Source: an uncultured Spirochaetaceae bacterium
GTDB taxonomy: Bacteria; Spirochaetota; Spirochaetia; Sphaerochaetales; Sphaerochaetaceae
Reading direction: 5' to 3'
Length of the DNA stretch: 39,024 bases
Assembly (NCBI GenBank): GCA_944389075.1
Contig: CALXLA010000011.1
Span: 1 to 39,024, forward strand
How positions within the stretch are numbered: position 1 is the stretch's first letter; each line of letters begins with the position of its first letter. Below the pieces are notes generated by a model, which saw nothing but the letters and a program-made list of their open reading frames with translations, had not been told where the DNA came from and searched no databases. Made by a program: the position numbers and the translations under genes. Shown here piece after piece: positions 20,588 to 29,440 of this stretch.

Positions 20588-21688
20588 ATGAATACCGAGT
20601 TGGTTAACCAGTTGATTATGATTGCAGTTGGCGTACTGCTTATTTATCTTGCCATCTGCAGGAAGATGGAGCCTACGCTTCTTCTTCCAATGGGATTCGG
20701 CGCTATTCTCGTCAATCTCCCAGGTTCGGTTATGCTAGAGGAGCATGCCATCCTCCAGTGGCTCTATTCAGTCGGAATCGAGAGTGCTGAAGCTTTCCCA
20801 CTGCTTCTTTTCATCGGAATCGGTGCAATGATTGATTTCGGTCCGCTTATCTCCAAGCCATGGCTCATCTTCATCGGAGCTGCAGGGCAGGGTGGTATCT
20901 TCATCTCGATGATCATCGCATCTCTGATGGGTTTCCCTCTCAACGATGCTGCATCGATTGGTATCATCGGAGCTGCCGATGGTCCTACGGCGATCCTCGT
21001 TTCCCAGAGGCTGAATTCAAACTTCATCGCAGCTATCCTTGTAGTGGCATACTGCTACATGGCTCTTGTTCCGATGATTCAGCCAGTTGTCCTCAAGGCA
21101 ACTACCACCAAGAAGGAAAGAGCTATCCAGATGCACTATTCAGCAGCATCTGTATCAAAGACGACAAGGATCATCTTCCCGATCGTAGCTACTATCGTCT
21201 GCGGTATCCTTGCTCCGGATTCAGCTGCTCTTGTTGGTATGCTCATGTTCGGAAACCTTATCCGTGAATGTGGTGTTCTTGATTCACTTTCACGCGCAGC
21301 TCAGGATATGCTTTCTCCGCTCATCACGCTGGTGCTTGGCCTTGCAATCTCTCCGATGATGTCTGCAGAGTCCCTGCTTACTCCTGCAACGCTCATGATC
21401 ATGGGATTCGGTCTCGTGGCATTCATCTTCGATACTGCTTGCGGTGTGCTGTTCCTCAAGATAGTCAACATCTTCCTTCCAAGGGAAAAGAAGATCAATC
21501 CGCTTATCGGAGGCGCTGGAATCTCTGCATTCCCGATGTCTTCCCGTGTTGTACAGAAGGTCGGTATCGAGGCAAACAAGCAGAACCACCTGCTTCCATT
21601 TGCTCTTGGTGCCAATGTCTCAGGTCAGATTGCATCCGTACTCGCTGGAGGACTCCTGCTTTCTGAGCTTCTCCCGATATTCGGCTAA
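20588..21688 (+). CDS. oadB: Sodium-pump decarboxylase beta subunit (OadB/GcdB/MmdB family)
   Basis: 366 residues from the ATG at 20588 (a GTG two codons earlier is possible). Very hydrophobic, about nine to eleven membrane segments. Recognisable family blocks: PLLLFIGIGAMIDFGPLIS, GIIGAADGPTAILVSQRL (re-entrant ion-path region with the conserved Asp), LLMFGNL-like MLMFGNLIRECGVLDSL, and FPMSSRVVQKVG. The beta subunit couples decarboxylation of carboxybiotin to export of sodium ions. The alpha (carboxyltransferase) and biotin-carrier subunits are not in this window, so which acid is decarboxylated cannot be told. Followed by a mini gamma-like gene. Confidence 0.92.
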   Translation: MNTELVNQLIMIAVGVLLIYLAICRKMEPTLLLPMGFGAILVNLPGSVMLEEHAILQWLYSVGIESAEAFPLLLFIGIGAMIDFGPLISKPWLIFIGAAGQGGIFISMIIASLMGFPLNDAASIGIIGAADGPTAILVSQRLNSNFIAAILVVAYCYMALVPMIQPVVLKATTTKKERAIQMHYSAASVSKTTRIIFPIVATIVCGILAPDSAALVGMLMFGNLIRECGVLDSLSRAAQDMLSPLITLVLGLAISPMMSAESLLTPATLMIMGFGLVAFIFDTACGVLFLKIVNIFLPREKKINPLIGGAGISAFPMSSRVVQKVGIEANKQNHLLPFALGANVSGQIASVLAGGLLLSELLPIFG

Positions 21689-26676: not shown

Positions 26677-27395
26677 TAAGGATAAATATCACGGACAATG
26701 CTGAAGAGCTTGGGAAAAAGGCTGCAGAGGCAGCCGCTTCCCTGATCAGGGATGCAATAGAAGAAAAAAGCTGGTGCCGTATGGTGCTTTCCACTGGCAC
26801 ATCGCAGTTTGAGTTCTTCTCAGCTCTTGTTAAAGAGGATATAGACTGGAGCCGGGTCGAGATCTTCCATCTCGATGAGTATGTCGGGCTTCCTGAGAAT
26901 CATGCGGCAAGCTTCCGCTTTTATCTGGCAAGGCGATTTGTCGATAAAGTTCATCTGGGGAAGGTCAACTATGTGAATGAGGGCAATATAGACGAGATAT
27001 CTGCCCTCTGGAGGGAGAAGCCTGTCGATATCGGTGTGATCGGAATTGGCGAGAATGGCCATATAGCCTTCAACGATCCTCCGGCTGATTTTTCTTCCGA
27101 TGATATTTACCGTATTGTCACGCTTGATGACAGATGCAGGCGTCAGCAGGTAGGTGAGGGCTGGTTCCCTTCTGTTTCAGATGTGCCTGAGAAAGCAGTG
27201 ACCATGCTTCCCAGGGCCATAATGAGCGTCGGGCACATCATCACGGCATGTCCTCATACGGTCAAGGCCGAAGCTGTCATAAAGGCGATAACCGCTCCTG
27301 TTTCAGAACGCATTCCTTCAACTATACTGAAGACACATCCGGACTGGCAGCTCTTCCTTGACAGGGATTCGGCTTCGCTTCTTCTGAGCATATGA
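26673..27395 (+). CDS. nagB: Glucosamine-6-phosphate deaminase
   Basis: 240 residues, family length. Motifs: MVLSTGTSQFEFFSAL (phosphate loop), EIFHLDEYVGL (catalytic Asp), IGIGENGHIAFNDPP (catalytic Asp/His region), and C-terminal ERIPSTILKTHPDWQLFLD. It converts glucosamine-6-phosphate to fructose-6-phosphate and ammonia, feeding amino sugars into glycolysis. Its start overlaps the preceding stop. The last 74 bp overlap the end of an ABC ATPase gene on the other strand; the conserved C-terminus shows the nagB frame is genuine. GGAGG precedes the ATG. Confidence 0.92.
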   Translation: MIRINITDNAEELGKKAAEAAASLIRDAIEEKSWCRMVLSTGTSQFEFFSALVKEDIDWSRVEIFHLDEYVGLPENHAASFRFYLARRFVDKVHLGKVNYVNEGNIDEISALWREKPVDIGVIGIGENGHIAFNDPPADFSSDDIYRIVTLDDRCRRQQVGEGWFPSVSDVPEKAVTMLPRAIMSVGHIITACPHTVKAEAVIKAITAPVSERIPSTILKTHPDWQLFLDRDSASLLLSI

Positions 27396-28020
27396 GCTTC
27401 CCGTCCTTGAGACGGTAGATTCTGCCGCATATCGCTGAAAGGACATCCTCGTCATGGCTGATGATGATCATTGCGGCATCAAGGCCTGCAAAAGTATTCA
27501 GGACAGACGCCCTGAGTGATGCATCAAGCGATGCGGTAGGTTCGTCAGCTATCAGAAGAGAAGGAGAGACAGACAGGGCTCGCGCAATGGCAATCCGTGC
27601 TTTTTCCCCTCCCGAAAGCTGGGAGGGTTTTCTTCCTGTGATTTCCGCAGAGAGCCCTGTTTTCTTCAGGATGTCCGCAAGTATTCTGTCGTGCTCTTTT
27701 CTGTTCCTGATTCCCTCGAGCATTATCGAACGGACGTTCATCTTCTCTTCGAGGGATGAACCGGGATTCTGGGGTATCAGCTGTATTCCCAGCATCTCTT
27801 TCCTCTTCAGAGTGGCAATGTCCCGGCCTCTGAGGAATATCCTGCCGCTGTCAGGCCGCAATATGCCTGCGATGCATAGCGCAAGCGTTGTCTTTCCTTC
27901 CCCGGATGGCCCTGCGATTCCTATGCGTTCCCCCTCGCTTATGATCATGCATACATCATCAAGGACTGTATTCCCGTTGTATTCCTTGCAAAGATGCTCG
28001 ATTCTCAGAAGTTCATCCAT
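27322..28020 (-). CDS. ABC transporter ATPase, oligopeptide/nickel type (DppF/OppF-like)
   Basis: 232 residues from the ATG at 28020, which overlaps the stop of the preceding ATPase gene; a longer frame to 28092 lies inside that gene. Walker A GPSGEGKTT, Q-loop QLIPQNPGSS, signature LSGGEKARIAIARAL, Walker B LLIADEPTASLD, switch IISHDEDV. Shorter than typical OppF: it lacks the C-terminal oligopeptide-transporter Cys domain and ends in a low-complexity tail (SEEAKPNPCQGRAASPDV) that overlaps nagB by 74 bp. No permease or binding protein is nearby. Confidence 0.88.
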   Translation of the reverse strand: MDELLRIEHLCKEYNGNTVLDDVCMIISEGERIGIAGPSGEGKTTLALCIAGILRPDSGRIFLRGRDIATLKRKEMLGIQLIPQNPGSSLEEKMNVRSIMLEGIRNRKEHDRILADILKKTGLSAEITGRKPSQLSGGEKARIAIARALSVSPSLLIADEPTASLDASLRASVLNTFAGLDAAMIIISHDEDVLSAICGRIYRLKDGKLICSEEAKPNPCQGRAASPDVSSV

Positions 28021-28939
28021 GTATGCATCTCCATCTGTGGTTCCCATCATATTTCCATCCAGGTGTTTCCGAAAAGCAGATCTTTTCTGCATATGGGCAC
28101 CTGCGTGCGAACGAGCAGCCTTCTATTTTCTCCCAGGAACCTGGCATTGAGCCTTTTATCGTGAGGAATGTCCCATCTGGATTCCTTTCAAGTCTTGATG
28201 TCCTTATAAGAAGTTCCGTGTATGGATGTCTGGGACTGCTTATGACATCAGCAGTATCGCCATCCTCGACTGTGAAGCCGCCATGCATCACAGCTACTGA
28301 ATCTGAATAGGCTGATGCAAGCGCGATTGAATGAGAGATGAAAAGCATCGAAAGTCCTTGCGTGGTCATGAGGGAGACAAGGAGATCCATGATCTCAGCC
28401 TCTGTTTTCCTGTCAAGCGCTGATGTCATTTCATCTGCTATCAGGAGGGAAGGAGATGATGATATGGCTGCTGCGATGAGCGCTCTCTGTTGCATGCCTC
28501 CTGAGAGCTGGTGGGGATACTTCCTTCCGGCTCCGGTAATTCCTGTTGCTTTCAGAAGGGCTTCTGCCCGTTCCGCAGCATCATCATTTCCGTTGATTCT
28601 CGCGATTCTCTCTATCTGTTTTCCTATTCTATATACAGGATTCAGAGCCCCATCCGCACTCTGGCAGATCATGGATATTTCAGAACCTCTGATAGCTGAG
28701 AGCTGCCTCTCATCCATATTGAGGATATTCCTGTTCCTGTATGCCACGATTCCGTCCGCTGAGGCATTTTCCGGCAGAAGGCCGATTATGGCAGAGGCTG
28801 TCATCGTTTTCCCGCAGCCTGATTCGCCGATAAGCGCTTTTGCGCTTCCTGACTTTATTGAGAATGATGAGTCCCTGACAGGTTCCCTGCTGCCAATCCG
28901 CACTTTGAGACCGGAAACAGTAAGAAGCGATTCTTCCAT
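28013..28939 (-). CDS. ABC transporter ATPase, oligopeptide type (DppD/OppD-like)
   Basis: 308 residues. Walker A GESGCGKTMTASAIIG, Q-loop ICQSADGALNPVYRIG, signature HQLSGGMQQRALIAAA, Walker B LLIADEMTSALDRKTEAE, switch FISHSIALAS. The C-terminus has the OppD-type Cys motif GCSFARRCPYAEKICF. The family N-terminus (LLTVSGLKVRI) shows that the ATG at 28939 is the only possible start, yet it lies 2 nt after the 3' end of tRNA-Pro, with no Shine-Dalgarno site other than the folded tRNA itself. It works with the next ATPase; permeases and binding protein must be elsewhere. Confidence 0.9.
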   Translation of the reverse strand: MEESLLTVSGLKVRIGSREPVRDSSFSIKSGSAKALIGESGCGKTMTASAIIGLLPENASADGIVAYRNRNILNMDERQLSAIRGSEISMICQSADGALNPVYRIGKQIERIARINGNDDAAERAEALLKATGITGAGRKYPHQLSGGMQQRALIAAAISSSPSLLIADEMTSALDRKTEAEIMDLLVSLMTTQGLSMLFISHSIALASAYSDSVAVMHGGFTVEDGDTADVISSPRHPYTELLIRTSRLERNPDGTFLTIKGSMPGSWEKIEGCSFARRCPYAEKICFSETPGWKYDGNHRWRCIHG

Positions 28940-28941
28940 TA

Positions 28942-29015
28942 TCGGGCAAGGCGGATTTGAACCGCCGACCCCAAGTCCCCCAGACTTGTACGCTAAACCC
29001 CTGCGCTATTGCCCG
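28942..29015 (-). tRNA. tRNA-Pro (GGG anticodon)
   Basis: 74 nt, folded by eye: acceptor CGGGCAA/TTGCCCG, D-stem GCGC/GCGT, anticodon stem CAAGT/ACTTG with loop CTGGGGG (anticodon GGG), variable GGGTC, T-stem GGCGG/CCGCC with loop TTCAAAT, discriminator A. The 3' CCA is not encoded. The start codon of the OppD-like gene comes 2 nt after the discriminator base. Confidence 0.95.
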
Positions 29016-29024
29016 CTTTTGTGG

Positions 29025-29054
29025 AGGGTAGCACAAGCAGGCAATAGTTGTAAA
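29025..29054 (-). promoter_or_regulatory. tRNA-Pro promoter
   Basis: On the - strand TTTACA (29054-29049), an 18-bp spacer and TACCCT (29030-29025), about 10 bp before the mature tRNA 5' end. It is the only promoter seen for the tRNA and, unless one lies inside the tRNA, also for the two ABC ATPase genes. Confidence 0.55.
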
Positions 29055-29065
29055 GATGCGTGGAG

Positions 29066-29097
29066 TTGACACATTCGGATAAAAGTTTCATTGTAAT
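29066..29097 (+). promoter_or_regulatory. Possible V-ATPase operon promoter
   Basis: A consensus TTGACA at 29066-29071 is followed by weak -10 candidates (CATTGT at 17 bp, ATTGTA at 18 bp, TGTAAT at 20 bp). The operon start codon is at 29114. Confidence 0.4.
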
Positions 29098-29113
29098 CGG
29101 CGATGGAGCGCAT

Positions 29114-29440
29114 ATGCAGAGCGAAGTGATTGATGACATCCTCTCCGTCGAGGATGAAGCCGCGAAAATCATAGAGGATGCAGAGAAAGAGGCGCAGAGC
29201 ATCATAAATGATGCTCATCAGAAAGCCGCTGCAGAGATCAATGCTGCGATTGCCCAGTCAGCAAGAGACGGGCAGGCTTCGCTTGAAGAAGCTGAGAGAG
29301 CCATGAACGAACATCTTCAGGAACTGCAGGAGAAGCTTGATGATCCAGCGAAGGCTCCTGATCTTCCAGAGGATCTCGTAGAGCGCGCATCCGACAGGAT
29401 TGTCAGCAGGATTCTGAGCACAGGATCAAGGAACGCCTGA
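29114..29440 (+). CDS. V-type ATPase peripheral stalk subunit G/H
   Basis: 108 residues from the ATG at 29114, preceded by GGAG. Almost wholly a long amphipathic helix: VEDEAAKIIEDAEKEAQSII followed by NDAHQKAAAEINAAIAQSAR, the alanine- and glutamate-rich coiled coil of AhaH/subunit G. It pairs with subunit E to form the stator that holds the catalytic head. First gene of the operon; its stop overlaps the subunit C start (TGATG). Assigned mainly by composition and position. Confidence 0.75.
   Translation: MQSEVIDDILSVEDEAAKIIEDAEKEAQSIINDAHQKAAAEINAAIAQSARDGQASLEEAERAMNEHLQELQEKLDDPAKAPDLPEDLVERASDRIVSRILSTGSRNA

Follow-up and report, generated by a model that had tools for sequence, protein, structure and literature searches.

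In animal mitochondria, open reading frames abut tRNA genes, the excision of the tRNAs makes the 5' ends of the mRNAs, and the messages are leaderless or nearly so (tRNA punctuation). In bacteria, a protein gene can share the promoter of an upstream tRNA, and the tRNA is then cut from the precursor, as in the thrU-tyrU-glyT-thrT-tufB and metY-rimP-nusA operons of E. coli. Some bacteria make many leaderless mRNAs, and Leptospira interrogans has about 440 messages with a 5'UTR of <10 nt (PMC5243855). In E. coli, leaderless mRNAs are made by the nuclease MazF (as cited in PMC3848588). A literature search carried out without most subscription papers yielded no description of tRNA 3' processing that generates a leaderless mRNA in bacteria.

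We analyzed a stretch of 39,024 nt from an uncultured Spirochaetaceae bacterium (the window; genome G000), in which a gene for an ABC transporter ATPase begins almost immediately behind a tRNA gene. The tRNA-Pro(GGG) gene, detected by ARAGORN and by Rfam RF00005 (58.7 bits), occupies 28942..29015 on the minus strand, with the discriminator A at 28942. The spacer between the discriminator and the start codon is UA (28940..28941, minus strand). RNase Z is predicted to cut on the 5' side of these two bases, and the ATG of oppD (28939-28937) follows 2 nt after the discriminator, so that the minus strand across the junction reads ...TTGCCCGA-TA-ATGGAAGAATCG. The coordinates given in the initial annotation (discriminator at 28942, ATG at 28939) were exact. 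Its remarks that no CCA is encoded and that no ribosome-binding site lies outside the tRNA were confirmed as well, as the sequence after the discriminator is UA, and the 20 nt before the ATG give an anti-Shine-Dalgarno (anti-SD) pairing energy of -1.5 kcal/mol, while most other window genes lie between -6 and -18.

The oppD gene (28013..28939, minus strand) encodes 308 aa, and we classify the product as an OppD/DppD-like ATPase by its PF00005 domain (77.5 bits) and its C-terminal oligo_HPY domain (PF08352, 56.9 bits), both over the cut-off; the protein scores below the curated NCBIfam cut-offs for OppD/DppD (204.8 vs 541 and 202.6 vs 575). The Walker A, signature and Walker B motifs are kept in all 11 relatives. 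The second gene, oppF (27322..28020, minus strand), encodes an OppF/NikE-like ABC ATPase of 232 aa (PF00005, 101.7 bits) with its own SD, GGAG, and overlaps the oppD stop by 8 nt (ATGGATGA). The overlap is of equal size in G045, G044, G035, G043, G037 and G040. At the loci of G004, G042, G056 and G041 oppF is absent and a reductase-like gene follows oppD. We also noticed a 243-aa frame on the plus strand (28338-29069), antisense to oppD and the tRNA and reading GGFEPPTP over the latter, which is an artifact of a familiar type rather than a gene.

Comparison with related genomes, proposed in the initial annotation as a check, revealed that the tRNA-Pro/oppD junction is kept in all species that have the gene family. 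Among 48 genomes of the genus, a family profile search detected this oppD in 11, with 433-524 bits vs at most 298 for other OppD copies, and all 11 members were located directly 3' of tRNA-Pro(GGG). In a scan of named genomes, the OppD copies were all distant (at most 42% identical). The 11 genomes constitute one clade (support 99/97) in a tree built from two V-ATPase subunits, with a weakly supported order of its three subclades (83/65), on which the SD could have arisen once or disappeared twice. The junctions were of two kinds. In six species the spacer is 2, 5, 6, 6, 7 or 7 nt long (TA in G000, TATAA in G045, TATAAT in G004, CTCAAG in G041, TTAGGCT in G042 and CAATGCA in G056), and oppD starts with ATG without an SD, at anti-SD energies of -2.6 kcal/mol or weaker; in the five others (G044, G043, G040, G037 and G035) the spacer has 17-22 nt and a strong SD with GGAGGG, at -11.2 to -12.8 kcal/mol. 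One short gap among 44 tRNAs would be unremarkable; a junction kept over a clade of 11 species, six of them without an SD, is not.

The short-spacer junctions resemble mitochondrial punctuation in that the oppD frame abuts a tRNA without a promoter or leader. Unlike the mitochondrial case, they lie on a bacterial chromosome where SD-led genes are the rule, at one to two loci per genome, and the junction is no member of mitochondrial-type punctuation in the genome-wide sense. As in bacterial tRNA-mRNA operons, oppD is downstream of the tRNA on the same strand, and a terminator between the two was absent in 11 of 11 species. However, the E. coli operons keep an SD leader that oppD of the six species lacks; the five SD-bearing relatives represent the ordinary form of such an operon. 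With the leaderless mRNAs of Leptospira, oppD would share an AUG predicted to lie within 10 nt of the 5' end and has in common the lack of an SD, but the Leptospira ends are transcription starts, whereas the oppD end is predicted to come from tRNA processing and to carry a monophosphate. Like the products of MazF, the oppD mRNA is proposed to become leaderless after transcription; MazF, however, is a stress toxin that leaves a 5'-hydroxyl, and the proposed cutter is a housekeeping tRNA enzyme.

We propose that oppD, with oppF behind it, would be transcribed from the tRNA-Pro(GGG) promoter in one precursor. RNase P would produce the mature 5' terminus of the tRNA and, as CCA is not encoded, RNase Z would cut behind the discriminator; the latter cut would free an mRNA whose 5' end lies 2 nt before the AUG (2-7 nt in the six species). 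Such a near-leaderless mRNA should bear a 5'-monophosphate and may be translated without an SD, by the leaderless route that the genus seems to use elsewhere. In the sister subclade, the SD within the 17-22 nt spacer suggests that the released mRNA would be translated in the usual way. Since oppD of six species lies 2-7 nt behind the tRNA with neither a promoter nor an SD of its own, one and the same cut probably matures the tRNA and generates the 5' end of the mRNA. We consider the whole chain of co-transcription, RNase Z cleavage and near-leaderless translation to be the best explanation, with a probability of about two in three. This reading had been put forward in the initial annotation and is partly supported. 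Its sequence-level predictions, where tested, agreed with what we found (CCA-less tRNAs, an RNase Z gene, the junction in relatives, neither an own promoter at leaderless distance nor an upstream start, purifying selection, and a genus with signs of leaderless genes); from these data we infer the mechanism itself, i.e. the co-transcription, the position of the cut and the translation of oppD.

The processing machinery required for such a cut is encoded. CCA is present in 0/44 tRNA genes of the window's genome, 0/42 of G045, 1/39 of G004 and 1/35 of G041. The window's genome has an RNase Z gene (TIGR02651, 332 bits vs a cut-off of 292.95), and of the 16 genomes tested, 15 had an RNase Z above the NCBIfam cut-off, with the enzyme split over two contigs in the remaining one. 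RNase Z cuts CCA-less precursors right after the discriminator, and CC at that place inhibits it (PMC8549757, PMC7479834). The junction UA fits such a substrate, as the tRNA is CCA-less and no CC stands behind the discriminator. The exact position of the cut is the most serious uncertainty of the chain: in vitro, B. subtilis RNase Z placed 50% of its cuts on one substrate 5-6 nt after the discriminator (PMC7479834), and a cut 5-6 nt past the discriminator would remove the oppD AUG.

Alternatively, the genes could be co-transcribed, and oppD could be translated for the most part before the precursor is cut, by a ribosome that binds beside the folded tRNA, or from a 5' end that another nuclease makes a few bases off. 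Co-transcription is required in any case, cleavage need not precede translation, and other bacteria have RNase E-type cleavages close to the 3' ends of tRNAs (PMC4681348). However, a spacer of 2-7 nt is too short for a ribosome beside the folded acceptor stem, an SD is lacking, and a functional tRNA requires excision. We regard this alternative as unlikely, roughly a one-in-seven matter.

The proposed chain also depends on where transcription begins. The putative tRNA promoter of the window, TTTACA-18-TACCCT (29054-29025), consists of a -35-like hexamer (TTTACA, 29049..29054, minus strand) and a -10-like hexamer (TACCCT, 29025..29030, minus strand), the latter preceded by TGC and located 9 nt upstream of the tRNA. 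In nearly all genomes, TTGACA (in most) or TTTACA is combined with a -10-like box located 8-16 nt upstream of the tRNA; the -35-like hexamer is at the same place in most relatives, and boxes of the (TG)nTAAT type stand where the window has the weak TACCCT. A strict sigma-70 scan of the window at 28700-29200, which TTTACA fails, returned no promoter, in agreement with the earlier statement that no other promoter was seen, and the pair upstream of the tRNA is the weaker candidate left. The tRNA promoter of the window's genome is a poor match to the consensus, and this counts against the best explanation; in nearly all relatives the match at this place is better.

Could oppD be transcribed from a separate promoter, be it within the tRNA gene or at another place, and abut the tRNA only incidentally? 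Consensus scans can miss cryptic promoters within tRNA genes, and in G004 a TATAAT stands directly before the ATG; a TATAAT touching the ATG would, however, put the transcription start inside the gene. At 5-9 nt before the oppD ATG, the best match to TATAAT in the six short-spacer species was 1-2 of 6 positions, so that no fitting -10 box exists at leaderless distance in any of them and a promoter-made leaderless start was rejected. The spacer sequence is also not conserved among the species. We therefore find an own promoter improbable, at some one chance in ten. In most relatives that lack oppD, a terminator hairpin lies within ~80 nt behind tRNA-Pro(GGG), often followed by a reductase-like gene, which indicates that oppD probably arrived once between the tRNA and the terminator. 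The simplest history would be a single entry of the gene pair at this place, with the tRNA promoter driving its transcription ever since.

The genus appears to use leaderless mRNAs for other genes. The loci analyzed comprised 213 gene families, in which TANAAT boxes peaked at a distance of 5-9 nt upstream of the first ATG (9.4 families vs 1.8 expected from more distant positions), a peak that is only indicative, because the loci are non-random and the first ATG was assumed to be the start. The best candidate for a leaderless gene in the genus is rfbB (dTDP-glucose-dehydratase-like), which in about ten relatives has a TATAAT-type box 6-8 nt before the ATG; in the rfbB genes with their own promoter, the best -10 match reaches 5-6 of 6 positions. 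In G000 the rfbB ATG follows tRNA-Gly(CCC) by 6 nt (TTTTCT) without an SD (L184:760-843; G000:C57:35859-35942), and in the sister genome G045 it is likewise 6 nt (TTTCCT) behind this tRNA (L188), with no -10 box before the ATG in either. In G037, G035, G043, G040 and G044, rfbB begins ~60-90 nt downstream of tRNA-Gly(CCC), and the interval contains terminator-like sequence. The comparison suggests that in G000 and G045 the promoter was replaced by the tRNA end. Genes abutting a tRNA were counted for 2/44 tRNAs in G000, 2/42 in G045, 1/39 in G004 and 1/35 in G041, and no further convincing gene within 10 nt was found among these 160 tRNAs of four genomes. The longer spacers of G000 behind tRNA-Arg(CCG), tRNA-Thr(GGT) and tRNA-Thr(TGT) contain an SD-like sequence, as judged by eye. 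Elsewhere in the window, two likely true ATGs at 20588 and 25915, downstream of the GTG starts called in the ORF list, lie 7 nt behind the -10-like boxes TAGAAT and TACAAT; these genes are probably leaderless by virtue of their promoters.

The initial annotation had held in reserve that the junction is a scar, left when an insertion or deletion at the tRNA end took the promoter away, and in the form of decay the genes would now be silent. The absence of oppF in four relatives and of permease genes beside the ATPases could be taken as signs of this. However, the frames are intact in 11 species, and dN/dS of oppD, computed for pairs with unsaturated dS only, was 0.10-0.33, which indicates that the gene is maintained under purifying selection. 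Moreover, the junction is retained throughout the clade and the tRNA end is not repeated in the window, so that decay seems very improbable. A fresh scar thus suits neither the 11 species nor the missing att-like copy, and an older insertion event may hold. An integrated element with the tRNA as its att site was also rejected, as the 3' end of tRNA-Pro(GGG) occurs once in the window and no long repeats were found nearby.

In the window, the oppD frame is open back into the tRNA and holds no ATG, GTG or TTG there, and the next in-frame start after the ATG is a GTG at codon 13, within the first beta strand of the ABC domain. In G045 a stop codon stands in frame immediately before the ATG, and in G042 an in-frame stop occurs six bases before it, with no other ATG, GTG or TTG in the 39 codons after it. 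The spacer length modulo 3 differs among the species with the junction, and, with a near-invariant tRNA, no shared start inside the tRNA could serve them all; together with the stops in G045 and G042 this excluded a common start there. An internal start at an in-frame GTG at about codon 18-21, preceded in some relatives by the SD-like AAGGAAGAGG (anti-SD energy of -8.8 to -10.3 in G045, G004 and G041), was rejected and is hardly to be expected, as this GTG is missing in G000, the window's own genome, and in G042, G056, G043 and G040, its purine run codes for GKEEAV, and such a start would remove the first beta strand, conserved in all 11 species.

Close to the start, codons 15-27 are the most synonymously conserved part of oppD. 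In eight species they form a long hairpin whose 3' arm is rich in pyrimidines, GGAAAGGAAGAGGCY-GTGA-GGTCATCTTCCTTTTCT, resembling a terminator or attenuator within the coding sequence; G056 has a different hairpin, and G000 and G042 have none. The element was placed at nt +43..+84 (or +34..+75) of oppD at nine loci and is degraded at the corresponding 28856-28897 of the window. The fold was stronger than in codon shuffles in most species, but compensatory changes did not exceed those of the shuffles in a covariation test. Because of this and of the loss in G000 and G042, we did not accept the hairpin as a proven RNA element and treat it only as a lead. Possibly it acts in attenuation, making read-through dependent on early translation, and it has no bearing on the window's own genome.

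If the proposed chain is true, the maturation of tRNA 3' ends can serve a bacterium as a step of gene expression, as it does in mitochondria. We put forward tentatively, at somewhat less than even odds, that RNase Z in this genus would also be a maker of mRNA 5' ends, in a bacterial form of tRNA punctuation. Expression of the transporter ATPase would thereby be tied to the synthesis and maturation of tRNAs, as would that of a sugar-nucleotide dehydratase gene in two of the species, and such punctuation could replace the promoter of a gene that is already leaderless; the hairpin, conserved in nine of 11 species, could add attenuation dependent on the freed mRNA already being translated. An evolutionary path may be envisaged here: a gene with a leaderless mRNA needs no signals of its own, and any RNA end just before the AUG would serve, whether it comes from RNA polymerase or from a tRNA enzyme, a swap that rfbB appears to show. 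The six near-leaderless junctions, the five with an SD at the same place and the relatives with a terminator instead form a natural test series.

Regarding the neighborhood, no permease or binding-protein gene adjoins the two ATPases in the window. The V-type ATPase operon is divergent from tRNA-Pro(GGG), and a nagB-like gene is convergent with oppF, their ends overlapping by ~70 nt (27322-27395). We also observed that tRNA-Pro(GGG) adjoins the V-type ATPase operon in nearly all genomes of the genus inspected (L088-L125) and that its orientation to the operon flips between species, being either divergent or codirectional and upstream. At three loci (L089, L091, L092), a second OppDF-like pair is located on the other side of the tRNA and divergent from it; this pair forms one long open frame in G003 and is 38-42% identical to the window OppD.
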